Shown here: positions 4,907-23,545 of the stretch, piece after piece
How the letters are laid out: each line of letters begins with the position of its first letter
Numbering within the stretch: position 1 is the first letter of the stretch
From: Deltaproteobacteria bacterium
GTDB lineage: Bacteria; Desulfobacterota; Binatia; UBA9968
Length of the DNA: 46,532 nt
NCBI GenBank assembly: GCA_009692615.1
Contig: SHYW01000031.1
Coordinates: 1 to 46,532, forward strand
Reading direction: 5' to 3'
Position numbers and translations under genes: made by a program
The notes under the pieces: generated by a model
Seen by the model: the letters and a program-made list of their open reading frames with translations, nothing else
The model's database searches: none
What the model was told of the DNA's origin: nothing

Positions 4907-6145
4907 CTATTTCTCTTCGCTATTCAAAATCGGACTATACTTCGTCGCGCCACCCTGGCGGCTCGGCTTGCCGCCTCGGAACTTGTTCTTATCAAGCTTG
5001 GCATCCTCTAGACGCAGTTTGATCGAAACATTTTTCGCCGGATCGCGAAACACGTTCATCGGGTCTTGGCCGGCTTGGACTTTTTCAATCTGTTCTTGCA
5101 ACTGCTTTCGATAAAGAATGATCCCCTTGTCCGACAGCCCGAGAGCTTCTTTGGTCCGGTCCGCCACGCCGCCTTGGGTCATCCAAGCGATCATGTCTTC
5201 GCCGCTGTTGTTATCGAGCAAGGACCAATCCGGCTCGCCGCTGGCATCGATGCTCGGCACCGGCACTTGATAGAACGGAATGACCTCCTGCGGCTTGGCA
5301 TCGTCGCGCGCGTAGCAGGTGTACCACAGATGCAATGTGTGCGTGTCGTCCAGCGGCACACGGATCTGAAAAGTCGGCCGCTGCGTACTACCGCTCAAGA
5401 GAATATTCGGGAACAGCACTGGATGACCCACCTGCCAATCTTCGCTGTCTTCGGTTTGCCCTTCGAGCATGCGGTTTTTGATCAGCCCATGTTCGAATTC
5501 GCGAAAATTAATTTTCTTGTGGCTCACCGGCTTGCCTTTGAACTCCGTCCGCCCCAACCGTTCTTGAACATAGTTAAAAAAATGTTGGTGCAGCCACTCG
5601 ACGTGAACCGGGTCAAGCGAGTTCTCCATGATCTGCAACCAATTGCAGGGAATCACCGCCGCGCCGATATCGCGCAGCACGCCGTCGCGCACGAACAACT
5701 CCCAGCGCGGAATCAGCGGCGCCGGTTCGGGACCGAGATAGGCGAAGAGCAAACCGCCCAATTCCTGCACCGGATAAGCCGGCATGCGAATGCGATCTTT
5801 GAACGTGCTGTTGGGATCTTCGGCGGTTTCGTAAGGTTGTTCCAAACATTTCTCGTCTTTGCCGTAGAGCCAACCATGATAGGAACAACGCAAGCCGTCG
5901 TTGTCGGGAATGCCTAACATCATCTACATGCGCCGATGCGCGCACTGCGGCCCGATCAACCCCGGCCGCCCTTGCTTGTCGCGGTAGAGCACCAAATCCT
6001 CACCCAACAAACGCACCGCCTTCGTCGGCTTGTCGATCAGTTCAGCAGACGCCGCGATCGGCAGCCAATAACGCCGCCACAATTCCCCCATCGGCGTGCC
6101 GCGACCCACTTGGGTGAGTAGTTCATTCTCTTGTTGGGTCAGCAT
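4907..6145 (-). pseudogene. Rieske non-haem iron oxygenase alpha subunit, interrupted by an in-frame TAG
   Basis: The product would be a 412-codon ring-hydroxylating oxygenase alpha subunit of the phthalate-dioxygenase (Pht3) type. The Rieske ligands are C68 and H70 (CAHRR) and C87 and H90 (CSYHGW). The mononuclear iron motif is DPVHVEWLH. Codon 74, between the two ligand pairs, is TAG (minus strand, 5926-5924), and the frame continues unbroken on both sides. Counting the TAG as one residue gives 16 residues between H70 and C87, as in the intact paralogue at 10974-12140, which has a serine there. A single TCG-to-TAG change would explain it. The gene's own terminator is also TAG, which argues against general recoding. 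The start ATG has GGAG seven bases upstream. Confidence 0.85.
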
Positions 6146-6261: not shown

Positions 6262-7437
6262 TCACTTCTTCGCCACTTCGCCCTGCGCCTCGGCGATCAC
6301 TTTCATAATCGGTTTCATATCGAAGTAGTCCGGATTCCACTGCGGCACATACTTTACCCCGGGGTTGAGCCGATTGCGCGCTGGAATATCGTCCTTCCCT
6401 ATGTCCATCCTGAGCGAACCCTCGGCGCCGGCGTCGAGATATTTCGCCGCCGATTTTTGAAAATCGCTCTGCCCCTCGCGCGATAGAAACCAGTTGAGAA
6501 AAACCTTCGCCGCGTTGGCATGAGGCGCTTGATTCATCAGTACCAAAGTCTTGGCGCGGCTTTCAACGCCGACGCCCTCCTTGAATTGCGCCGGCTCCAT
6601 CAAGTCCACCGGCAGCCCTTGGCTCTTCGCTTCGCTGATCGACTGGTGCCGGCAAAGACAGAGCGAATATTTACCCGCGGCCAACCAATCCTCACCCTGC
6701 GGGATACGCGCATACAGCGTCAGCGCCGTTTCGCTAAACAGCCGGCGTAAAAACTGCGGTCCCAATTCGGGATTGTGATAAAAAAACCGGTCGCGGGTCG
6801 CGGCAAAGCCGCCGGACTTGGGATCGAAGGCGACGATCTTGCCCTTCCACTTGGGATCGAGCAAATCCCAATAAGATTTGAAGCCGGCGGGATTAACCGA
6901 CTTGGTGTTGTAGCCAAGCAAGAACAGCGGCGCGCCGACGTAGACAAAGATATATTTGCCCTCGGGGTCGATGAACTGTTGCTTGCCCTGCCACCACTTA
7001 GACTCGTCCTTAACCTCCGGCAGGATAAAGGCCGAAGCGATCGGATCGAGGACTTTGCTTTGATAGAGCGTGTACGGCGAAGTGTTGCCGAGGTTGCCGA
7101 TGTCGGCGAGAAACTTCCCTGCGCGCCGCTCCGCCATGATGCGCTGCAAGTGCTGCGCCGCGCTGGCGTGCAGCAAGTTCACTTTGATTTTGGGATATTT
7201 TTTCTGAAACGCCTGCCACTCGGAGTCGCTGGCGATCTAGTAGACGTTGACCTGGCCTTCCTGCTCGGCGGCTTTGATCGTCCGCTCCCACTCGCTATCC
7301 GGTGCGGCAGCCGTTTCCGCACCATAGGCGTGGGATCCCAAAAGCACCGCCGCCAATAGAATCGCTAACGATGCAATCGCATCGCGGATCCCCCCCTTTG
7401 AAAAAAGGGGGGAAGGGGGAATTTTCTGGCGGATCAT
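6262..7437 (-). pseudogene. Iron(III)-type ABC substrate-binding protein, interrupted by an in-frame TAG
   Basis: The product is a periplasmic extracellular solute-binding protein (family 1, FbpA/AfuA-like) of about 391 codons. The start ATG at 7437 follows GGAGG. The signal peptide is odd: residues 6-17 (IPPSPLFSKGGI) are encoded by a dispersed C-rich/G-rich palindrome at 7391-7412, before a normal hydrophobic stretch. After AEQEGQVNVY codon 67 is TAG (7239-7237), and the same frame resumes with DSEWQAFQKKYP, RIMAERRAGKF and the normal C-terminus ending PGVKYVPQW. The intact paralogue at 12275-13405 shows the same order of motifs and the same spacing around the stop. It is therefore a recent nonsense pseudogene or needs amber readthrough. 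It starts 23 bases after the decarboxylase-like gene. Confidence 0.82.
7391..7412. repeat. Palindrome CCCCCCTTT/AAAGGGGGG inside a signal-peptide coding region
   Basis: A nine-base perfect stem with a short loop lies within codons 8-16 of the binding-protein pseudogene and encodes PPSPLFSKGG-like residues on the minus strand. This peptide is a familiar translation of a dispersed intergenic repeat. It appears to have moved into the start of this gene. Confidence 0.65.
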
Positions 7438-14515: not shown

Positions 14516-15082
14516 TCAGCTGCGCGCCAGATTCTGACGGAACTTCTCGCGATACTCGGTACTGTAAAGGCGGGCGAAATTTTCCGGATAGGTTTCGCCC
14601 AGCTCGACCTTGAGCGAGACGAACACCGGACCTTCTGCGTTGAGAATTTCCGGTAGCTGCTTTTGCCAATCCACCAGCTCAGAAATCTCAAAAGTTTTTT
14701 TGTAGCCCGAGGTCTTGGCCAACTCGGCGAAGCGAACTTTACCGGCGCTCGGCAGCGGCACCGAGCCATTGGTTTCGTAGCAGCCGTTTTCGCATAGGCA
14801 ATGAATATAATTTTTTGGCGCCTGACTGCCGATGGTCACCAGCGAGCCGAGATTCATCAGCAAACTGCCGTCGCCGTCGAAGACGATGACTTTCTTGTCC
14901 GGCCGGCCCAAGGCCAACCCTAACGCGTGCGACGAGCCCTGGCCCATGGCTCCAACAAAAGTGTAGTTCAAATCGCTCGGCGAAATATGCGTCAGCTCCT
15001 GCGCCGCCATATAGACCGCGACGACGATTTCATCTTTGCGCTGACGCGCAAACGCTTTTAGCATCTCATCTCGTTTCATCAT
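14516..15082 (-). CDS. ThDP-dependent decarboxylase, cofactor-binding (C-terminal) subunit, ComE-like
   Basis: This 188-residue subunit binds the diphosphate/Mg part of thiamine diphosphate. The motif runs from GDGSLLMNLGSL, with the following NYIHCLCENG forming the rest of the GDG-N region. FVGAMGQGSSHALGLALG precedes it. It resembles the beta subunits of sulfopyruvate and phosphonopyruvate decarboxylases (ComE group). Its ATG begins two bases after the TAG of the upstream subunit gene, so the two are translationally coupled and presumably form one enzyme. The expected reaction is non-oxidative decarboxylation of a 2-oxo acid to an aldehyde. Substrate specificity cannot be read here. Confidence 0.85.
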   Translation of the reverse strand: MMKRDEMLKAFARQRKDEIVVAVYMAAQELTHISPSDLNYTFVGAMGQGSSHALGLALGRPDKKVIVFDGDGSLLMNLGSLVTIGSQAPKNYIHCLCENGCYETNGSVPLPSAGKVRFAELAKTSGYKKTFEISELVDWQKQLPEILNAEGPVFVSLKVELGETYPENFARLYSTEYREKFRQNLARS

Positions 15083-15084
15083 GG

Positions 15085-15594
15085 CTAGCGCGGCTCCCTT
15101 CCGATTAAAATCGCGCTCGGTGACGAGCTAGCAAACGATTTTTCAATTGCCGAAAAAATTTTCGGCGCGTCGCCGTCCCGTTCGACCAAGCAATGCTCGA
15201 TGCCCATGACATCGCAGATCGGCTCGATAATCTTGACACCGTATTTTTTTGACTGCGCGGGCGCCACATCGGGCTCTTTGCCGAGCAGACCGACGACGAT
15301 GCAGACAGGGAACTTACCTTCGACAGCGATGCCGCGGATCGAATTGATGGAATCGAGAAAGCCGGTGTACTGCATCATCAACACCGACTTGTGGCCGGCG
15401 GCGTAGAGTCCGGCGCAGATCGACACGCCTTCGTCTTCTTTGCACACCTGAACGACTTTGTAGTCGGGATCGGCGATCAAGCCTTTGAGCAAATGATGGC
15501 TAGTCACCCGATCCGGCAGCGCGACGACAAAACGAATGCCGGCGCGTTTATATTCATTCTTGATCGCCGCAGCGGTCAAAGGATAGTCGGCCAT
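15085..15594 (-). CDS. ThDP-dependent decarboxylase, pyrimidine-binding (N-terminal) subunit, ComD-like
   Basis: This 169-residue subunit starts at MADYPLTAA with GGGAGGACCC before the ATG. The frame extends further upstream but that part overlaps the REP palindrome and the GMC gene end. The block VVQVCKEDEGVSICAGLYAAG holds the glutamate that activates the ThDP aminopyrimidine ring. LMMQYTGFLDSINSIRGIA and VVGLLGKEP are typical of sulfopyruvate decarboxylase alpha (ComD) and the N-terminal part of phosphonopyruvate decarboxylase. It pairs with the ComE-like gene directly downstream. The split form is usual for the Com group, whereas phosphonopyruvate decarboxylases are mostly one chain. Confidence 0.85.
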   Translation of the reverse strand: MADYPLTAAAIKNEYKRAGIRFVVALPDRVTSHHLLKGLIADPDYKVVQVCKEDEGVSICAGLYAAGHKSVLMMQYTGFLDSINSIRGIAVEGKFPVCIVVGLLGKEPDVAPAQSKKYGVKIIEPICDVMGIEHCLVERDGDAPKIFSAIEKSFASSSPSAILIGREPR

Positions 15595-15618
15595 GGGTCC
15601 TCCCTCTTCTATTCGGTC

Positions 15619-15642
15619 GGGCGCAGCATGCTGCGCCCCTAC
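15619..15642. repeat. REP palindrome GGGCGCAGCATGCTGCGCCC + CTAC
   Basis: A perfect 20-base palindrome lies in the 52-base gap between the GMC oxidoreductase and ComD-like genes. It has the same GGGC...GCCCCTAC frame as the copies around the RAYT gene but a different core. Confidence 0.8.
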
Positions 15643-15646
15643 GAAA

Positions 15647-17161
15647 TCACGCCACTTCCTGGACAAAATCCGCCAATCGCTCGCCGATCATGATCGAAGT
15701 TAAATTGGTATTGGCGCGGCTAACCACCGGCATGATCGACGCGTCGCCGACCCAAAGATTTTGCAAGCCGTGCACGCGGAGTCTTTGATCGACCACCGCC
15801 ATCGGATCGCTCGCCGGTCCCATCTTACAAGTGCCGACGCCATGGTGATAGCTATCGTAAGTCTTGCGCGCGAAGGCGCCCCAATCATCGCCCGGCCCCG
15901 GCTGGATCAACGGCCCGTAGTAATCTTTCACTCCCGGCTGATGCACCAACTCATCGATGAACTGCATCGCCTCGACCATCGCTTTCAGATCTTCCGGATG
16001 TTCGAGCATGCAGGAGTCGATGCCGACCTGATCGTGCGGATCGGCGCTTTGCAGGAAAACCTTGCCGCGGTTGCGCTGTTCGAGCAAATGGGCGGAAATC
16101 GGCATCATGCGCTTGAGCCCGCTCACTTCCGTCGGCGGCCGCATGTTGATGTGAAAGTTCGCCGCTTCGCTGATCGGGTTCTTGCGAACGATCAAACGGA
16201 AACGCGGCACCACCCAATCCTCTTTCGACTCCTTTGGCCCTTCGAATGTCATGAAGACGACAGGATGGTCTTGATAGTTTTCGCCGACGCCCTTGAGTTC
16301 ATGCGCCAGCGCGATGTTATATTTTTTCAACTGCTCGGCCTGGCCGATACCGGTGAGCATGAGAATCTGCGGCGTGCCGTAGACCCCCGAGGTGACCAGA
16401 ATCTGCCCGCCGAGAACAGTGTGCATGGCGCCGTCTTTTTCGTAATTGACGCCTTCGCACTTTTTGCCGTTGAGTTTTAGTGTATGCACCGTCGCTTGAT
16501 CGATGATCGTCAGATTCTTTCGCTCACGCGCGGCGTTTAAGTAAGCCACCACGGTGGATTGCCGTTTGCCGTCTTTAATATTGTAAGGCGACGCGCACAC
16601 GCCGTAGGGCTCCGGCACATTGAGATCGGGGCACTTCGGCAGGCCCATGGCATAAGCCGCATCGATGAAGGCGCGGGCCGGCGGCGACATCGGCATATCG
16701 AGCGTATACTGACGTTTAACGTAGAGCGGACCGTCTTTGCCATGAATCGGATCGTCAGGAAAATCCTGGTCCGACTCGATCTTCTTCATGAACGGCAGAC
16801 ATTTTTCATAGGTCCAATCGGGATTGCCTGCCGCCACCCATTGATCTAAATCGTAACGCTGCGGCCTGAGCACCGACATGACGTTGACCGAAGAACCGCC
16901 GCCCATGATGCGGCCGGCGAGCGCATAGTAAGTGCTGCCGTCGATATGGCGCTGGGTGCCGAACATCGAGACGTAATCGGACTCCAACAGCAAGCGCGTC
17001 TGATTCTTCGACTCGGCAATCAACTCCGGCAACGGCCAGGGATCGGGACCGGCTTCGAGCAACAACACTTTGCGCGCCGGATCTTCCGACAACCGATTGG
17101 CCGCCACGCAGCCCGCCGATCCGCCGCCAACAATTATCACGTCGTACTTTCCTTCGGCCAT
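15647..17161 (-). CDS. GMC-family FAD alcohol oxidase/dehydrogenase
   Basis: This 504-residue flavoprotein of the glucose-methanol-choline family has the ADP-binding motif GGGSAG at residues 12-17. GRIMGGGSSVNVMS is the GMC signature near residue 85. Near the C-terminus, SYHHGVGTCKMG carries the active-site histidine, followed by the FAD-binding LWVGDASIMP and ANTNLTSIMIGERLAD. It would oxidise a primary alcohol to an aldehyde, passing electrons to oxygen or another acceptor. The start ATG follows GAGGAG. It is the first gene of the minus-strand catabolic run, and the ThDP decarboxylase, an aldehyde producer, follows at once. Length is near the family norm. Confidence 0.92.
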   Translation of the reverse strand: MAEGKYDVIIVGGGSAGCVAANRLSEDPARKVLLLEAGPDPWPLPELIAESKNQTRLLLESDYVSMFGTQRHIDGSTYYALAGRIMGGGSSVNVMSVLRPQRYDLDQWVAAGNPDWTYEKCLPFMKKIESDQDFPDDPIHGKDGPLYVKRQYTLDMPMSPPARAFIDAAYAMGLPKCPDLNVPEPYGVCASPYNIKDGKRQSTVVAYLNAARERKNLTIIDQATVHTLKLNGKKCEGVNYEKDGAMHTVLGGQILVTSGVYGTPQILMLTGIGQAEQLKKYNIALAHELKGVGENYQDHPVVFMTFEGPKESKEDWVVPRFRLIVRKNPISEAANFHINMRPPTEVSGLKRMMPISAHLLEQRNRGKVFLQSADPHDQVGIDSCMLEHPEDLKAMVEAMQFIDELVHQPGVKDYYGPLIQPGPGDDWGAFARKTYDSYHHGVGTCKMGPASDPMAVVDQRLRVHGLQNLWVGDASIMPVVSRANTNLTSIMIGERLADFVQEVA

Positions 17162-17203
17162 TACGTTCTCCTCAATATGCTATGTCGTTAGTTTATCCGG
17201 GAT

Positions 17204-17269
17204 AGATTTCTCGCTGCGCTCGAAATGACAGTTGATTGGGTTTGTCATCCCGAGCAAAGCGAGGGATCT
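17204..17269. repeat. Dispersed inverted repeat with TGTCATCCCGAGC arm
   Basis: Arms 17204-17230 and 17243-17269 are imperfect inverted copies of about 27 bases (AGATTTCTCGCTGCG against CGAGGGATCT). The form is a well-known dispersed intergenic element in environmental genomes. It marks the boundary between the catabolic run and the CoxG gene. Confidence 0.7.
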
Positions 17270-17334
17270 CACCCTTCGCTCAGCCTATAAAACATTTCCG
17301 CTAGTTTGAACAGGCCGAAACAGGCGAACCCTAT

Positions 17335-17360
17335 TGCCTGTTGCCTACTGCCTGTTGCCT
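17335..17360. repeat. Short direct repeats TGCCTGTTGCCT
   Basis: Two direct copies of TGCCTGTTGCCT lie 14 bases apart immediately after the CoxG stop. They may be slippage-derived. No function is visible. Confidence 0.55.
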
Positions 17361-17364
17361 TCCG

Positions 17365-17817
17365 CTACGCCTGCGCGCCAAGCCCCTGATGCAGCCGCTT
17401 GGTGAATTCTTGGAGAATCAAAGTCGCCGTCGCGCGCAAAACCATGTCGCCAAGAATCCCCAGGCGCCCTTTGATCTGCACATCCGCTTTGTAATCCATC
17501 TGCGAAGTCGAATCGGTCACCCGGCGCAAATCGACCGTCATATCGGCGTTCACCGTACTCTTGGTCACGGTATCGGTGCCTTCGGTCTTCACCACCATTT
17601 GCACCGGCGGCTTGCTCTCGACGATCGTCGAACGAAAGTTAAACTTCCCCGAGATCGGCCCCACCGACGCCGAGATCACCCCGTCGAAACGCGTCGAATC
17701 AATCTGCGTCACCGAGTCGATGCCCGGCAAGCAGGTCGAAAATTTATTGATATCGATCAAAAACTCCCAGGCCTTTTCGATTGGGGCATTCAAATCGATG
17801 GTACCATCAAGAATCAT
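17365..17817 (-). CDS. CoxG-like SRPBCC protein
   Basis: This 150-residue SRPBCC (START-like) protein matches the CO dehydrogenase subunit G family. It shows the N-terminal GTIDLNAPIEKAWEFLIDINKF, CLPGIDSV, VGPISGKFNF and the C-terminal KGRLGILGDMVLRATA. CoxG helps recruit or mature molybdenum hydroxylases at the membrane. The C-terminal membrane anchor of classic CoxG is absent here, so this is the short form. A GGGAG site precedes the ATG. A molybdenum hydroxylase large subunit lies 3.5 kb away on the same strand, which makes a joint role credible though not proven. Confidence 0.88.
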   Translation of the reverse strand: MILDGTIDLNAPIEKAWEFLIDINKFSTCLPGIDSVTQIDSTRFDGVISASVGPISGKFNFRSTIVESKPPVQMVVKTEGTDTVTKSTVNADMTVDLRRVTDSTSQMDYKADVQIKGRLGILGDMVLRATATLILQEFTKRLHQGLGAQA

Positions 17818-17913
17818 TGTGCGGCTTCTCCCATTAGAAATTCAGGCGCGATCTTATGTGACAAAAAATCGCGTGACAAGTCCTGGACAAACTATTACGG
17901 TTCAAGCCCGTGC

Positions 17914-19272
17914 TTATTCCCGAGTTAATCCGAGTTCCGCCCACATCCAAGTGAAATCATAGGCGACCTCTCCTGAACGGCGCTGGCGTTCTGAGTAGCT
18001 TTCGAAATCTTTTAGCAATGCGATCAACTTGGGGCGTACGGTTTTCAACTTGGCGGCATGACGGGGCGTACGGTTGCCAAGGGCCGGCACCGGCTCGTCG
18101 AGCCACTTGCCATAGTGATCTTGGTAGAACTCACCGAGGAGCCGCTGTTGTTCTGCAGACGGAATCTCTGGCTCTTTTGTTCTGTTCCGTGGCGGCGCGT
18201 GTTTGAGCGCTTGCTCGATGTCTTCGTAACTGATGGCGCGGAAACGCACGGCGGCGCCGCACAGGACCGACAACTCATCGCGGGCCTTTTCGGCGCGCGA
18301 GCGCGACATGGTTTCGAATACGACGCGCTTATCCTCAATGACAATGACGCCAAGGCTGCGCTGCCCAGCGCCAGCCGGCTCCAGCCAGACGTAGCTACCG
18401 TCATCCTGAGCGACAAAATCTTCGCGCACCGCCAACGCACCCAACAATGCATCGCGGTCGAGCAGATCGAACACCACCTTGGCGAAGATCATCGGCTCGC
18501 CGTCGCTGGTCATAATCTTAGGCCGCGGCGGCAACGCGACTCGCTCCAACCACCACTGATGCAACGACGGCGTCACCCAGCGAAAGAAGTCAGAAAGGCT
18601 TTTCTCGCCATATCGGCGGGTGAATTCCCGATGGTCGCGCCGCAAGTCACTTAGAAGCTCATCCTTGATCGACGCTGGAAATAGATGGGTCAAAGTTTCG
18701 AACACCACGGCACCGTCACCTGACAAGCCGATCCGTCCGACAACCAAATCCCACGCTACCACTTGCCGGGTGGCAGATCGCTCGCGCACATACAGGCGCC
18801 GATCATCCCACAAGTCGCGCAGTTCGAATCCCTGGTCAATCTTTACTTCGAGAACTTCGTACAACCGGGAATGGCTGCCGAGCATGCCTTCGAGATAATT
18901 AAGCTCGCCGCTGGAAAATCTCTTGGCCTCGCGTTCGAGAAATAGATCGAGCAACGTCAGACCATCGCTAAGTTCGAAATCGTAAGCAAACCAACTGTTG
19001 TACGCGATATTCACCGATTCCGATTTCATCACCGCATCGAGTTGCTCGTCCGGCTCATCCAGTATCCATTCGCCCCAAAACAGTTCGAGAGCTTCCTTGT
19101 GCTCTTCATTGAACTCAGCGCGAGCGGCGAAGCGCACCAGCTTCGCCAGGGCGCTATCGCGCTCCTCACGGCGATAGGATGGCGCCACTGTAAGGCTCTT
19201 GTTGAAACAGCATTTCTTGAACTTGAGGCCACTGCCGCAAGGACAAGGATCGTTTCGGCCAACCGCACTCAC
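17914..19272 (-). CDS. SEC-C motif protein of unknown function
   Basis: This 452-residue protein begins with a SEC-C zinc motif, GRNDPCPCGSGLKFKKCC (residues 5-22), the metal-binding module found at the end of SecA and in many uncharacterised proteins. The start codon is GTG behind AGGAGG, which places the motif right at the N-terminus. The rest is mainly helical and acidic, with no further domain I recognise. Related long SEC-C proteins are annotated as hypothetical. It follows the redoxin gene by 65 bases on the same strand. The name refers to SecA's C-terminal motif and is unrelated to selenocysteine. Confidence 0.85.
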   Translation of the reverse strand: MSAVGRNDPCPCGSGLKFKKCCFNKSLTVAPSYRREERDSALAKLVRFAARAEFNEEHKEALELFWGEWILDEPDEQLDAVMKSESVNIAYNSWFAYDFELSDGLTLLDLFLEREAKRFSSGELNYLEGMLGSHSRLYEVLEVKIDQGFELRDLWDDRRLYVRERSATRQVVAWDLVVGRIGLSGDGAVVFETLTHLFPASIKDELLSDLRRDHREFTRRYGEKSLSDFFRWVTPSLHQWWLERVALPPRPKIMTSDGEPMIFAKVVFDLLDRDALLGALAVREDFVAQDDGSYVWLEPAGAGQRSLGVIVIEDKRVVFETMSRSRAEKARDELSVLCGAAVRFRAISYEDIEQALKHAPPRNRTKEPEIPSAEQQRLLGEFYQDHYGKWLDEPVPALGNRTPRHAAKLKTVRPKLIALLKDFESYSERQRRSGEVAYDFTWMWAELGLTRE

Positions 19273-19337
19273 TGTAAATCCTCCTATTGCAGCTGAGAGC
19301 TTGGAGCTGCGAATTTAGAATCGCCAGGCTCTAACCG

Positions 19338-19889
19338 CTATTTTCCCGGATAATCCGCCGCCGGTGCTTTGCCGACCGCCACCGCGCACGCCGCCTTGGC
19401 CAACGCCACCGGGCTTGGCCGATCGGCCGCGCTGTCGCTCACGTAGGCCCATTTCACCTTGCCGGAGGGATCGACGACGTAGGTCACCGGCGCGGCTATG
19501 GTACCGGCCCAATGACCTTGGTTCTCCGTGCCGCAGGCGCGGATCAAAGTCGCGTCGGGATCCGAGAGCAGACGCAGCGGATAAGGATCGAGTGGAATAT
19601 GCGGCCGGTCTTCTTGGCAGTCGCGCGTCACTCGTTCGAGAAGTTTCTTACCTTCCTCCGGCGGTTCGACACTGATGCCGAGGATCTGCACATTTCCAGC
19701 TAAATATTTTTCCCATTCGTAAACAAAGGCCGTCACCTGGGCCCGGCACCAGGGTCACCAGCGGCCGCGGTAGAAAAAGATCACCGTCGCCGGCGCACTT
19801 TTAAAAACCGCGGGAAAGTCGACGGTACCGCCGTCGATGTCTTTGATCGATGCGGATGGGAATGGATCGCCGACCGATAATTTTGCCAT
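19338..19889 (-). CDS. Redoxin/peroxiredoxin-like protein, probable selenoprotein (in-frame UGA, U45-x-x-C48)
   Basis: Read through, this is a complete 183-residue AhpC/TSA-type redoxin: start MAKLSVGDPFPS (ATG 19889), then DGGTVDFPAVFK, ATVIFFYRGRW, codon 45 TGA (19757-19755), PWCRAQVTAFVYEW, LGISVEPPEE and a C-terminal cis-Pro region AAPVTYVVDPSGKVKW. Relatives have YRGxWCPxC here, so the UGA stands exactly at the first redox cysteine of a CxxC motif. UxxC redoxins are a known bacterial selenoprotein type. No other frame defect is visible and conservation continues to the TAA-side end. A hairpin starts at the UGA (19728-19766). A TGC-to-TGA nonsense mutation is the alternative. Expected role: thiol-dependent peroxide reduction or disulfide exchange. 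No sel genes lie in this window. Confidence 0.75.
19728..19766 (-). promoter_or_regulatory. Candidate bacterial SECIS hairpin at the redoxin UGA
   Basis: On minus, CCTGG (19753-19749) pairs with CCAGG (19740-19736) around an eight-base loop TGCCGGGC. An outer GGCCG (19766-19762) pairs with CGGCC (19732-19728), enclosing the UGA. An alternative stem GCCG/CGGC presents a GG-starting loop 11-12 bases after the UGA. The loop lies closer to the UGA than in most described bacterial SECIS elements, so the assignment is tentative. Confidence 0.4.
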
Positions 19890-19942
19890 GAGACTTTTCC
19901 TTTTGTTGCGATCTATTGAGGTTTATTCCCTGTGAACGAAGA

Positions 19943-19966
19943 GGGCAAGGCACGCCTTGCCCCTAC
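19943..19966. repeat. REP palindrome copy at the 3' side of RAYT
   Basis: GGGCAAGGCACGCCTTGCCC is a perfect inverted repeat followed by CTAC. It overlaps the last codons of the RAYT frame. Confidence 0.85.
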
Positions 19967-20240
19967 GAAGATTGCGTCGATTTCGGCCTTCAGTGAATGT
20001 TTGTGAGTCGCATTTGGATTGTTAGTATCCTCATGCCAGCGACCCGGATTCGCCACGATATATTCGCGCACTCGATCCATCTCTGAGTCATTGCGAATGA
20101 CACGTTCGAAGTAATTTCGTTGCCAGAGTTGCGCTCCAGATATGCCGCGTAATTCGTTGATGCGTCTCGTGCTGGCCGACTTAAACGCCCCAACCACCAT
20201 TCCCAACGAAGCTCTGACAGGCCGGCCGAAGCCCGCCGAC

Positions 20241-20264
20241 GTAGGGGCAAGGCGTGCCTTGCCC
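20241..20264. repeat. REP palindrome copy inside RAYT
   Basis: GTAG followed by GGGCAAGGCGTGCCTTGCCC, in inverse orientation to the outer copies. It lies within the transposase coding region, between the HVH motif and the C-terminal helices. Confidence 0.85.
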
Positions 20265-20557
20265 TCTTCGCCTCCATTCAAGCAGACAATTCCATGGACG
20301 TGATTCGGCATGACAACGAAGGCGTCGAGACTCACATAGGATCGCAAGGCTGCGCTTTTCATCCATATCCTCATCAACGATTTTTCCAAAACCATTCGGT
20401 TCCATCGTTCCATCCACGACATCTCCGAAAAGACATTGACGATTGAGTGTACAAACCGTTACGAAATAAGCTCCGGTCTCTCGATAGTCAAATTCTCGGA
20501 GCCTGATTGAGCGGCGATGGATTTGTTCATTCGTTGGCGCCATTGCCATGCGAGCAA

Positions 20558-20580
20558 GGGCAAGGCACGCCTTGCCCCTA
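20558..20580. repeat. REP palindrome copy at the 5' side of RAYT
   Basis: The core is identical to the copy at 19943 (GGGCAAGGCACGCCTTGCCC, then CTA). It lies eight bases upstream of the RAYT start codon. With the copy at 19943 it brackets the gene as direct repeats. Confidence 0.85.
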
Positions 20581-20590
20581 CAGGGGACGA

Positions 20591-21139
20591 CTAATCGTTG
20601 ACCGTGTACTCGCGCTCGTTCAGCGTGAACCTGCCGGTCACCGGCATGCGCTTACGCATGGAATTGACCGTGTGGCAGCCCTGGTCCGCCGCTTGGGCGA
20701 CTTGGATGACCTGTTCGAGCGGCGATTCGCTGATGATTTTGAAGACGTAGTTGATGCCTTGGGCGGCATCGGAAAAATCTTTGATCGGAAACTTGCCGGT
20801 CAGGTCGTAGGTCATGCGCAGATCCATTTCAAGGTCGCGTAAGACCACGCCGGTCTTAACCGCCAGACGTTTGAACTGGCTGAACATGCAGAAGCCGATA
20901 GAGGCGATGAAATATTGCAGCGGCGAAGGCCGCTTGCCATGTTGCCGCTTGAACTTTTCGTCGTCGCAATAGACCGTGTAGTCTTCGCGTTGCTCTAGCT
21001 TGACCAGCTCTTCGTTGAGCCGAATGATGGCGCGCTGCTGTAAGAGATAGCCGTCCGCATCGTCGGACGGCCGCTGCCGTTCTTCCTCATAAACGACGCG
21101 AAACTTTCCGAGATCGATGGTTCCCGGAAATGCCGCCAT
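20591..21139 (-). CDS. OsmC family protein
   Basis: This 182-residue member of the OsmC/Ohr superfamily comprises thiol peroxidases acting on organic hydroperoxides. The first catalytic cysteine is in SPLQYFIASIGFCMFSQF and the second in ADQGCHTVNSMRKRMPV, the usual spacing. A longer than usual N-terminus (about 60 residues before the core) precedes the core. It starts 3 bases after the stop of the molybdenum hydroxylase gene, so the two are co-transcribed. It may protect the hydroxylase from peroxide, or the OsmC-like fold may serve another thiol reaction. Confidence 0.9.
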   Translation of the reverse strand: MAAFPGTIDLGKFRVVYEEERQRPSDDADGYLLQQRAIIRLNEELVKLEQREDYTVYCDDEKFKRQHGKRPSPLQYFIASIGFCMFSQFKRLAVKTGVVLRDLEMDLRMTYDLTGKFPIKDFSDAAQGINYVFKIISESPLEQVIQVAQAADQGCHTVNSMRKRMPVTGRFTLNEREYTVND

Positions 21140-21142
21140 GGG

Positions 21143-23368
21143 TCACTTGGCGCCGTGCAGCGCTTGGTAAATCTTTTCCGCCGTGATCGGCAGGCTGGTG
21201 ATACGCACGCCGCAAGCGTCTTCCACCGCATTGGCAATCGCCGCGGCGGTGGGAACATTCGAGGTCTCGCCGATCGGCATGCTGTTGTACGGCCCCGCGC
21301 CCTTGAGACTTTCGGTCACCGAGCTTTTGAACACCGGCAAGTCTTTGATGGTCGGGATTTTGTATTCGCCAAAATTCGCCGTCACTACTTTGCCGTCGCT
21401 GATAATCACCTGCTCCATCAATGTGTAGCCAATGCCGGTCAGCGCGCCGCCTTCGATCTGGCCTTGATGCATGAGCGGGTTCAAAACCGTGCCGCCGTTG
21501 TGCGTGGAAGTGAATTTTTTGAGCTGCACTTGGCCGGTGGCCGGATCGACTTCCACTTCGGCGATCTGCACGCACATGGAAGCTTCATGAACTTTTTTAT
21601 TGTTGTCGTAGGTCGCTTCGACGCGGATCGGGCCGCCGGTGGCCTTGACCAACTCGGCGTAGGAAAGCTTGCGTTCCATGCGCGGATGCAGCACCGCGCC
21701 TTTAGCCAAGACGATTTGATCGGCGGGAACGTTGAATTGACTCGCCGCCGCCTGCTTGATCGCTTCGACGGCTTTCAACGCCGCTTCGTAGCCGGCGTTG
21801 CCGTAGACACGGGTCGCGCGGCTACCGCCGACGCCGGTGTCTTTGACGCCTTCTTGAGTGTTGAGTTGCTGCATGCGCACTTGGTTCAGCGGAATTTTTA
21901 GTTCTTCGGCGACGATCTCGCTGATGACTGTATAAGTTCCCGCGCCTTGATCGGCCATCGCCGAGGAAATCGTCACGATGCCTTTGTCGTCGAGCGCCAG
22001 CGCCACCGTGCCGATGCCGCCGTTGGCCATCCATTGCACGAACGCCACGCCGCGGCCGACGTTTTTTGCTTTCGGCCGATTGTATCCGGAATCTTCCAGC
22101 GCTTTCGCCAGGGTTTCATCCGACTTGATGAAGCCCACTTCTTCGCCGATGGGATCGACATCGCCGTCATGCATGAGATTTTTCTGGCGGAACTTGAGCG
22201 GGTCCATGCCAAGCTTCTTGGCGATGATATCCAACTGGCTCTCGTTGGCGAAAAAGCCCTGAGGGTCGCCCGGCGAGCGCATATGGCCGCAGGGAATCTT
22301 GTTAGTGTAAACCATATGCTCTTCGATCAAACAGTGGGGAATCTTGTAGGGCCCGGCCGAGCCGTGCGGGCCGGCGAGAAACGCGTTGGGCTTGAAGGCG
22401 CCATAGGCGCCGCTATCGAAGATGAAATCCATATGATGGGCGACGATGGTGCCGTCTTTTTTGAGACCGGTTTTAACTTTGATGATCGACGCGTGGCGCG
22501 GATTGCCGGCGATCAGCTCTTCATCGTAATCCATCACCAGCTTCACCGGCTTGCCGGCTTTCTTCGACAGCAAGTAAACCACCGCGACATCCATGAAGTC
22601 GCCCTTGCCGCCAAAATCGCCGCCGATGTAGCAAGGATTGACGACCAATTTTTCGTGGGCAATGTTTAAGGCATTGCCGACCTGCTCGCGAATCGCGTAG
22701 GGCACTTTGCTGCAACACCAAATCTCCGCCGAACCGTCCGGCGCGGTTTTGACCACCGCGGAATGGGGTTCGATGTAGCCGTGATGCACCACCGGCGTGG
22801 TGAAAGTATTTTCAACGACGATGTCCGCTTGGCGGAATCCGATTTCGATATCGCCCTTCTTCCAGGTGTAATAAACAAACTCGTTAGTCGGACCCGAGAG
22901 CGGTTTGGGCAGGCCTTTATAGTTGGCGACATTGGGATGGACCCACTTCGCGCCGGCGCCGAGCGCTTCGACGGGATCGAGCAGCGCGAGATTTTCTTCG
23001 TACTCGACTTCGATCAAATTCAAAGCCTCTTCGGCGATGTCTTCGCTGTCCGCCGCCAGAGCGAGAACTTTTTCACCGATGAAACGCACTTCGCCGTCAG
23101 CGAGGATCGGCATGTCGTAAAGTCGGCGGCCGATTTTCAATCCCTCACAGTCCACGCCGGTGACGATGGCGCGCACGCCTTTGAGTTTTTCCGCTTTGCT
23201 AGCGTCGATCCGCTTGATCTTTCCCGAGGCGATCGGACTGCGCAGCAGTTTTCCCCAGAGCATGCCCGGCAGCGTCACGTCCACCGCGTACTTCGCTTGG
23301 CCGCTGACTTTGAGTTCGCCTTCGATTCGCGGTGTCGGATTACCGACGATTTGTTTGTTCGATGCCAT
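21143..23368 (-). CDS. Xanthine dehydrogenase-family molybdenum hydroxylase, molybdopterin-binding subunit
   Basis: This 741-residue large subunit hydroxylates aldehydes, N-heterocycles or CO-like substrates at a molybdenum cofactor. Typical blocks are TPRIEGELKVSGQAKYAVD at the start, HGYIEPHSAV, NPCYIGGDFGGKGDF, GHMRSPGDPQGFFANES, MADQGAGTYTVISEI, TGVGGSRATRVYGNAG, and PIGETSNVPTAAAIANAVEDA with the active-site glutamate near the C-terminus. I set the start at MASNKQ because AGGAGG lies just upstream. The frame runs on into the tRNA gene, so any longer start is false. The FAD and iron-sulfur subunits are not in the window. OsmC follows after 3 bases and CoxG lies further on. Confidence 0.93.
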   Translation of the reverse strand: MASNKQIVGNPTPRIEGELKVSGQAKYAVDVTLPGMLWGKLLRSPIASGKIKRIDASKAEKLKGVRAIVTGVDCEGLKIGRRLYDMPILADGEVRFIGEKVLALAADSEDIAEEALNLIEVEYEENLALLDPVEALGAGAKWVHPNVANYKGLPKPLSGPTNEFVYYTWKKGDIEIGFRQADIVVENTFTTPVVHHGYIEPHSAVVKTAPDGSAEIWCCSKVPYAIREQVGNALNIAHEKLVVNPCYIGGDFGGKGDFMDVAVVYLLSKKAGKPVKLVMDYDEELIAGNPRHASIIKVKTGLKKDGTIVAHHMDFIFDSGAYGAFKPNAFLAGPHGSAGPYKIPHCLIEEHMVYTNKIPCGHMRSPGDPQGFFANESQLDIIAKKLGMDPLKFRQKNLMHDGDVDPIGEEVGFIKSDETLAKALEDSGYNRPKAKNVGRGVAFVQWMANGGIGTVALALDDKGIVTISSAMADQGAGTYTVISEIVAEELKIPLNQVRMQQLNTQEGVKDTGVGGSRATRVYGNAGYEAALKAVEAIKQAAASQFNVPADQIVLAKGAVLHPRMERKLSYAELVKATGGPIRVEATYDNNKKVHEASMCVQIAEVEVDPATGQVQLKKFTSTHNGGTVLNPLMHQGQIEGGALTGIGYTLMEQVIISDGKVVTANFGEYKIPTIKDLPVFKSSVTESLKGAGPYNSMPIGETSNVPTAAAIANAVEDACGVRITSLPITAEKIYQALHGAK

Positions 23369-23416
23369 GCTTGACCTCCTGATGCGGGTAAAACTAATAA
23401 TAAAAAAAATATATGT

Positions 23417-23462
23417 ACTCCGCTTCGCTAAACGACCTCGGTGAGATCGCGCGAAGCGGAGT
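23417..23462 (-). terminator. Stem-loop terminator after tRNA-Asn
   Basis: ACTCCGCTTCGC (23417-23428) and GCGAAGCGGAGT (23451-23462) form a perfect 12-base stem eight bases after the tRNA's CCA end. On the minus strand it is followed by ACATATATTTTTTTTATT. It probably ends tRNA transcription upstream of the hydroxylase gene. Confidence 0.75.
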
Positions 23463-23469
23463 TGAAAGC

Positions 23470-23545
23470 TGGCTCCCCGGGAGGGACTCGAACCCCCGAC
23501 CCGGTGATTAACAGTCACCTGCTCTACCAACTGAGCTACCGGGGA
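23470..23545 (-). tRNA. tRNA-Asn (GTT)
   Basis: The 76-base cloverleaf is read on minus. The acceptor 5' TCCCCGG pairs with 3' CCGGGGA, followed by discriminator G and an encoded CCA (23472-23470). The anticodon loop CTGTTAA gives GTT, and the T-arm contains GGTTCGAGTCC. It is complete and unbroken. Degenerate pieces like its 5' half occur at 23617 and 24038. Confidence 0.97.

Follow-up and report, generated by a model that had tools for sequence, protein, structure and literature searches.

A probable Prx-like UxxC selenoprotein with a conserved active-site UGA in an uncultured lineage of Deltaproteobacteria

Introduction

The Prx-like selenoproteins are set apart from the selenocysteine-containing peroxiredoxins by a UxxC motif that replaces TxxU (PMC1088965). 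'Prx-like 1' is assigned to pfam00578 and 'Prx-like 3' to pfam08534 (PMC2398784), and the selenoprotein types named in a further source include 'Redoxin family protein' and 'Prx-like thiol:disulfide oxidoreductase' (PMC13188914). Here we describe a redoxin gene with an in-frame UGA in a stretch of 46,532 nucleotides from an uncultured Deltaproteobacteria bacterium. This stretch, hereafter the window, lies on contig C31 of a genome assembled to 5.05 Mb in 186 contigs and estimated to be 98.7% complete. From sequence comparisons we put at roughly 0.96 the probability that the gene makes a selenoprotein, in which SelB and Sec-tRNA-Sec would decode the UGA of codon 45 to give a redox-active UxxC product.

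Results

A redoxin frame with a single internal UGA

The features of the gene are as follows.

19338..19889, minus strand: probable Prx-like (AhpC/TSA fold) selenoprotein gene, 183 residues, UxxC active site (from frame, Pfam, alignment and fold prediction)
19755..19757, minus strand: in-frame UGA, residue 45, probably read as selenocysteine (from the sequence and TGA in 12/12 other close copies reaching the site)
19746..19748, minus strand: codon of Cys48, the second residue of UxxC (invariant across 12 aligned rows)

Translation of the minus-strand frame 19889-19338 gives 183 residues with one internal stop, a TGA at codon 45 (19757-19755), and the gene terminates with TAG. The motif around codon 45 is FYRGRW(TGA)PWCRAQ, in which the second Cys is residue 48. 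An earlier note, made from the sequence alone, had read this gene as a selenocysteine redoxin, and its coordinates, frame, length and lone TGA at codon 45 are all exact. The Pfam domain AhpC-TSA spans residues 6-147 and thus runs across the TGA (3.7e-22, residue 45 entered as Cys). An AlphaFold2 model built from the 12-row alignment described below has a mean pLDDT of 87.2 and a pTM of 0.86, and places residue 45 directly before a helix formed by residues 46-65. The sequence AAAAGGAAAAGTCTC sits 5' of the ATG and is a plausible ribosome-binding site. With the standard code the open reading frame listing gives just a 132-residue downstream piece of the gene (19338-19736, GTG start), so that the redoxin gene is easily lost from annotation.

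Conservation of the UGA in relatives

To place the gene, we searched 58 genomes (the window's own and 57 relatives) with the readthrough protein; 55 of them yielded at least one match at E <= 0.001, and many of the matches are distant redoxins. The close group comprises 15 copies including that of the window, and all 13 that extend to codon 45 carry TGA there. The 12 other copies reaching the site (12/12 with TGA) come from 11 related genomes and have a protein identity of 43-82%, in keeping with the view of the earlier note that a UGA would be unlikely to fall on a redox Cys codon by chance. Close relatives with varied non-Cys codons at this site, which that note had named beforehand as speaking against its reading, were not seen; TGA is kept in every close copy that reaches it. 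The remaining two close copies (G002 and G010) are pieces in which the first 35-36 residues are kept and the site is absent, the G002 piece also retaining a C-terminal remnant.

The alignment holds 12 of the 13 copies that reach codon 45; the copy of G014 (L034), the G002 and G010 pieces and the weaker matches of the 58-genome search, with or without a TGA inside, were left out, and L033 and L035 were aligned only as far as their frame breaks. Among the positions invariant in these 12 rows are F38-G42, W44, residue 45 (as Cys), P46, W47, C48 and R49-V52, which bears out the retention of C48 reported in the earlier note. An otherwise undamaged copy is present in nine genomes (G000, G006, G007, G012, G015, G016, G017, G024 and G025), and the copies of G014, G003 and G005 have frame breaks; in that of G014 the TGA is joined by a TAG and another break of the frame.

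Beyond the close group, 21 more distant redoxins were returned as loci, with a stop at the same place in 19 (one TGA inside) and Cys in two (L043 and L045). Contigs C5, C129 and C25 of the window's own genome each carry a redoxin whose motif has an in-frame TGA in the same position (L002, L003 and L004). As these are three of the 19 TGA-bearing distant redoxins, the genome holds four such redoxins in all.

A species-wide scan (one genome per species, 84,980 species) returned 22 related loci. Twelve of them are close-group copies from Deltaproteobacteria MAGs, at least several of which were already in the 58-genome set (L075 is G014 and L071 is G025), so that these copies add no independent evidence. 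The other 10 are remote, at 23-37% identity, and come from Pedobacter, Mucilaginibacter, Flavihumibacter, Chitinophagaceae and Cytophagaceae. At the site of codon 45 they have Cys in nine cases and Asp in one, so that the UGA does lie where relatives have the redox Cys, as had been proposed. One of the two patterns used spelled Cys at the site, and the scan of the 84,980 species brought up no close-group copy in Cys form. All copies found of the close group (at least 43% identity) belong to the family and order of the window. When the phylum was searched at E <= 1e-25, one of 395 genomes was hit, the window's own; no other known carrier scored among the 395, so that there is none in that sample, a result that says little about the window's own family.

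Selenocysteine machinery in the same and related genomes

The earlier note had proposed a check for sel genes and had counted the absence of all of them against its reading; selA, selB, selD and tRNA-Sec are all present in the window's own genome. The tRNA-Sec lies on contig C142 (74.9 bits, gathering score 47; called tRNA-SeC with anticodon tca by ARAGORN), and selA (617 bits, cut-off 268), selB (410 bits, cut-off 242) and selD (372 bits, cut-off 125) are consecutive on contig C70. The selD gene has an in-frame UGA of its own (VKAAGUAAKLG), and UxxK is given as the SelD motif in PMC13188914.

Across the 58 genomes, selB is present in 48 (E <= 1e-80), selA in 51 (E <= 1e-40) and tRNA-Sec in 41 (E <= 1e-9, with stricter filters). 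The nine genomes with an intact redoxin copy have selA in 9/9, selB in 8/9 and tRNA-Sec in 8/9: no selB was found at the threshold used in G025, which has two redoxin copies, and tRNA-Sec was not found in G006. Decayed copies of the selenoredoxin were also observed at loci L054 (G002), L055 (G010), L056 and L075 (both G014). At the thresholds used, G002, with its redoxin pieces, is without selA, selB and tRNA-Sec; G010, with a redoxin piece, has a partial selA and is without selB and tRNA-Sec; G014, with frame breaks, is without selA and selB and has tRNA-Sec; and G003 and G005, also with frame breaks, have selA and selB, tRNA-Sec not being found in them. That gene decay tracks loss of the machinery is suggestive only, the assemblies being fragmented and several genomes keeping other TGA-bearing redoxins. 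The decayed copies may offer a natural test of selenocysteine dependence, one confounded by this fragmentation.

Synonymous constraint and a candidate SECIS downstream of the UGA

Two features were recorded immediately 3' of the UGA.

19754-19728, minus strand: excess synonymous conservation, codons 46-54 (permutation test)
19744-19740 paired with 19731-19727, minus strand: stem of a candidate SECIS hairpin, loop CAGGUGAC at 19739-19732 (fold no better than synonymous shuffles)

Synonymous identity in codons 46-54 is 384/508 pairs (0.756), compared to 2748/6298 (0.436) over the remaining codons, an excess with a permutation p of 2e-5 (100,000 draws). The permutation used 7 amino-acid-invariant codon columns inside the stretch and 38 outside, was corrected for codon usage and compared columns of the same sequences with the tree ignored. 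Such an excess is as would be expected of a SECIS, and it lies where a bacterial SECIS belongs.

The rules for bacterial SECIS elements given in PMC13188914 are a loop of 3-9 nt, a stem of 4-16 bp, a G in the first two loop positions, a spacing of 16-37 nt and an MFE <= -7.5. The candidate hairpin GGGCC-CAGGUGAC-GGCCU is paired in 58 of 60 cells, and its stem and loop size are within these rules. Its 8-nt loop opens 15 nt past the UGA with CA, with no G in the first two positions, and by itself the hairpin reaches -7.2. With an alternative AGGU loop, at 16 nt and with G in second place, the hairpin has a weaker -4.7. The stem GGGCC/GGCCU shows no covariation across the aligned rows, and the 45 nt past the UGA are not in excess stable: 54% of 300 synonymous shuffles are as stable for the window, and 14-70% over the 12 rows. 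With a simple reading of the published rules, a rule-based search gave a best hairpin of -2.9 kcal/mol, with 24% of shuffles as good, and found no hairpin in L033. At the gathering score no Rfam family matched the stretch downstream of the UGA, and the RNAalifold consensus was not SECIS-like by eye.

Three distant homologues (L003, L042 and L047) carry CAGGU in the same codon register, and there GGCA-GGU-UGCC makes a neater hairpin, noted in L003 after the UGA. AGGU is also presented by the E. coli fdhF SECIS. In all, a SECIS is likely to be present downstream of the UGA, and its fold is put forward as a candidate because the hairpin neither covaries nor is unusually stable. The earlier note had pointed to 19720-19760 for a SECIS: this interval does contain the stretch of synonymous constraint (19728-19754).

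Other readings of the UGA

An ordinary CxxC redoxin gene could have acquired the TGA through a nonsense mutation or an error in sequencing, and the window itself gives some ground for asking. Two other genes, named by eye, are each interrupted once on the minus strand, a Rieske-type gene by TAG at 5924-5926 and a substrate-binding-type gene by TAG at 7237-7239, and the damaged G014 copy of the redoxin adds a TAG and a frame break to its TGA. Both TAG stops are seen in the window's genome alone, in contrast to the UGA: the aligned relatives are stop-free at the TAG site in 5/5 cases for the first gene (76-93% identity) and in 4/4 for the second (68-77%). The two TAG-interrupted genes on which the earlier note had kept the nonsense explanation alive are real, and the case for selenocysteine is not weakened by them. 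A mutation or an error is also hard to reconcile with a protein conserved on both sides of the TGA, with the Sec machinery in the genome and with the synonymous constraint immediately past the UGA. Since the same codon is TGA in the relatives down to 43% protein identity, we reject this explanation as very improbable.

The residue of the relatives at the TAG sites was also recorded, Ser in 5/5 for the first gene and Ser in 3/4 and Thr in 1/4 for the second. We regard the Ser or Thr at both sites as a small coincidence. Pyrrolysine was considered for these TAGs and discarded, PylS being above the cut-off in 0/58 genomes, with weak matches below it in 36. A serine amber suppressor was likewise discarded: ARAGORN called 13 tRNAs at eight tRNA-Sec-like places of the window's own genome, none with a CUA anticodon, and besides these places no CUA tRNA was seen in the window or in the stretches L057 and L058.

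It is less probable still that the TGA is a true stop, with the downstream part re-initiated as a separate short protein from the 132-residue GTG frame. That frame exists, but the Pfam domain and the predicted fold continue across the TGA, the invariant active-site motif straddles it, and the residues before it are conserved while the synonymous sites there vary. Decoding of the UGA as another amino acid, through a changed code or a suppressor, would suit the Cys of the distant homologues and is just as improbable, given a complete Sec system in the genome and the use of TGA as terminator by ordinary genes in the window, at least by that of the molybdenum hydroxylase (21143-21145).

Genomic neighbourhood

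Upstream of the redoxin gene the window contains the following genes.

19913..20422, minus strand: REP-associated tyrosine transposase-like gene, between OsmC and redoxin (61.7 bits, NCBIfam cut-off of 80 not reached)
20591..21139, minus strand: OsmC-like gene, NCBIfam 'OsmC-related (seleno)protein' (104.1 bits, cut-off 95)
21143..23530, minus strand: molybdenum hydroxylase (xanthine dehydrogenase/aldehyde oxidase type) large subunit, a recurring upstream neighbour

The start of the hydroxylase frame is mechanical and overlaps a tRNA-Asn (23470-23545), so that the true start is probably further in. Its terminal TGA (21143-21145, minus) shares the frame of the OsmC gene, which starts with an ATG one codon further on; we take this TGA as an ordinary boundary between the two genes. 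There is no in-frame UGA inside the window's OsmC copy. A homologue of the transposase-like gene, 53% identical, was observed immediately upstream of the redoxin in L065 (5618-6031).

The stretch 14516-23530 (minus) of the window was compared with 12 close-group loci (L065-L076), several of which are too short to tell. The redoxin has the hydroxylase large subunit upstream of it in 7/12, with an OsmC homologue between the two in 2/12; in 4/12 the locus includes the GMC oxidoreductase and the two genes that follow it, one of them with a TPP-enzyme C-terminal domain. The OsmC neighbour was also seen in G002, L072 and L075. In L074 only the redoxin matched over 6.9 kb, and in G002 the hydroxylase and OsmC genes are present with the redoxin down to pieces. 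The repeated occurrence of the redoxin beside a molybdenum hydroxylase, at some loci together with OsmC, gives a concrete starting point for working out what it does.

From these positions we can tentatively imagine, and hold to be rather unlikely, that the selenoredoxin is a dedicated thiol-redox partner of the hydroxylase and the OsmC protein, the GMC oxidoreductase also lying close. If so, one oxidative pathway of the lineage would be selenium-dependent, with UxxC shuttling electrons or peroxide. A link of redoxin, hydroxylase and OsmC was not found in the parts of the literature available to us.

Discussion

The machinery genes, the TGA of the relatives, the Cys of the remote homologues and the synonymous constraint downstream all support the selenocysteine redoxin that the earlier note had proposed. 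In the mechanism that we favour, SelB with Sec-tRNA-Sec would decode the UGA of codon 45 as selenocysteine, assisted by an RNA element just 3' of it. The product would have a peroxiredoxin/thioredoxin-type fold in which a Sec45-Cys48 UxxC pair opens the long helix 46-65. Judging from the motif, it would most likely be a thiol:disulfide oxidoreductase, or a peroxidase acting through Sec, and would cycle between a reduced form and a Sec45-Cys48 Se-S bond. With the close group, an uncultured lineage whose genomes have selB in 48 of 58 cases gains a well-supported selenoprotein.

The best PDB match of the model (Foldseek rank 1) is the peroxiredoxin Bcp4 (3hjp, E 5.6e-13, TM 0.74/0.85). The window protein has its fold in common with the Bcp-type peroxiredoxins (3hjp and 2cx3), which have Thr or Ser at the position of the predicted Sec45. 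In a profile alignment Sec45 is opposite Thr in 3hjp and Ser in 2cx3, and Cys48 is opposite Ser in 3hjp and the Cys of the SxxC motif in 2cx3, which is presumably the peroxidatic Cys. The T/SxxC of peroxiredoxins proper, with Thr or Ser three residues before the peroxidatic Cys, is not found in the window protein, where Sec45 would occupy that position. The best NCBIfam match is NF040769, SelL-related redox protein (residues 9-88, E 5e-8), and membership of that family was rejected at 32.8 bits, the cut-off being 120.

In the parts of PMC13188914, PMC2398784 and PMC1088965 available to us, neither the close group nor its neighbourhood was found described, which is no proof of absence. As far as found, the group is confined to the window's family and order. 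By fold and motif the predicted protein is of the published Prx-like UxxC selenoprotein type, a likeness drawn from published descriptions of its members: the two have in common the AhpC/TSA (PF00578) fold and a thioredoxin-like UxxC.
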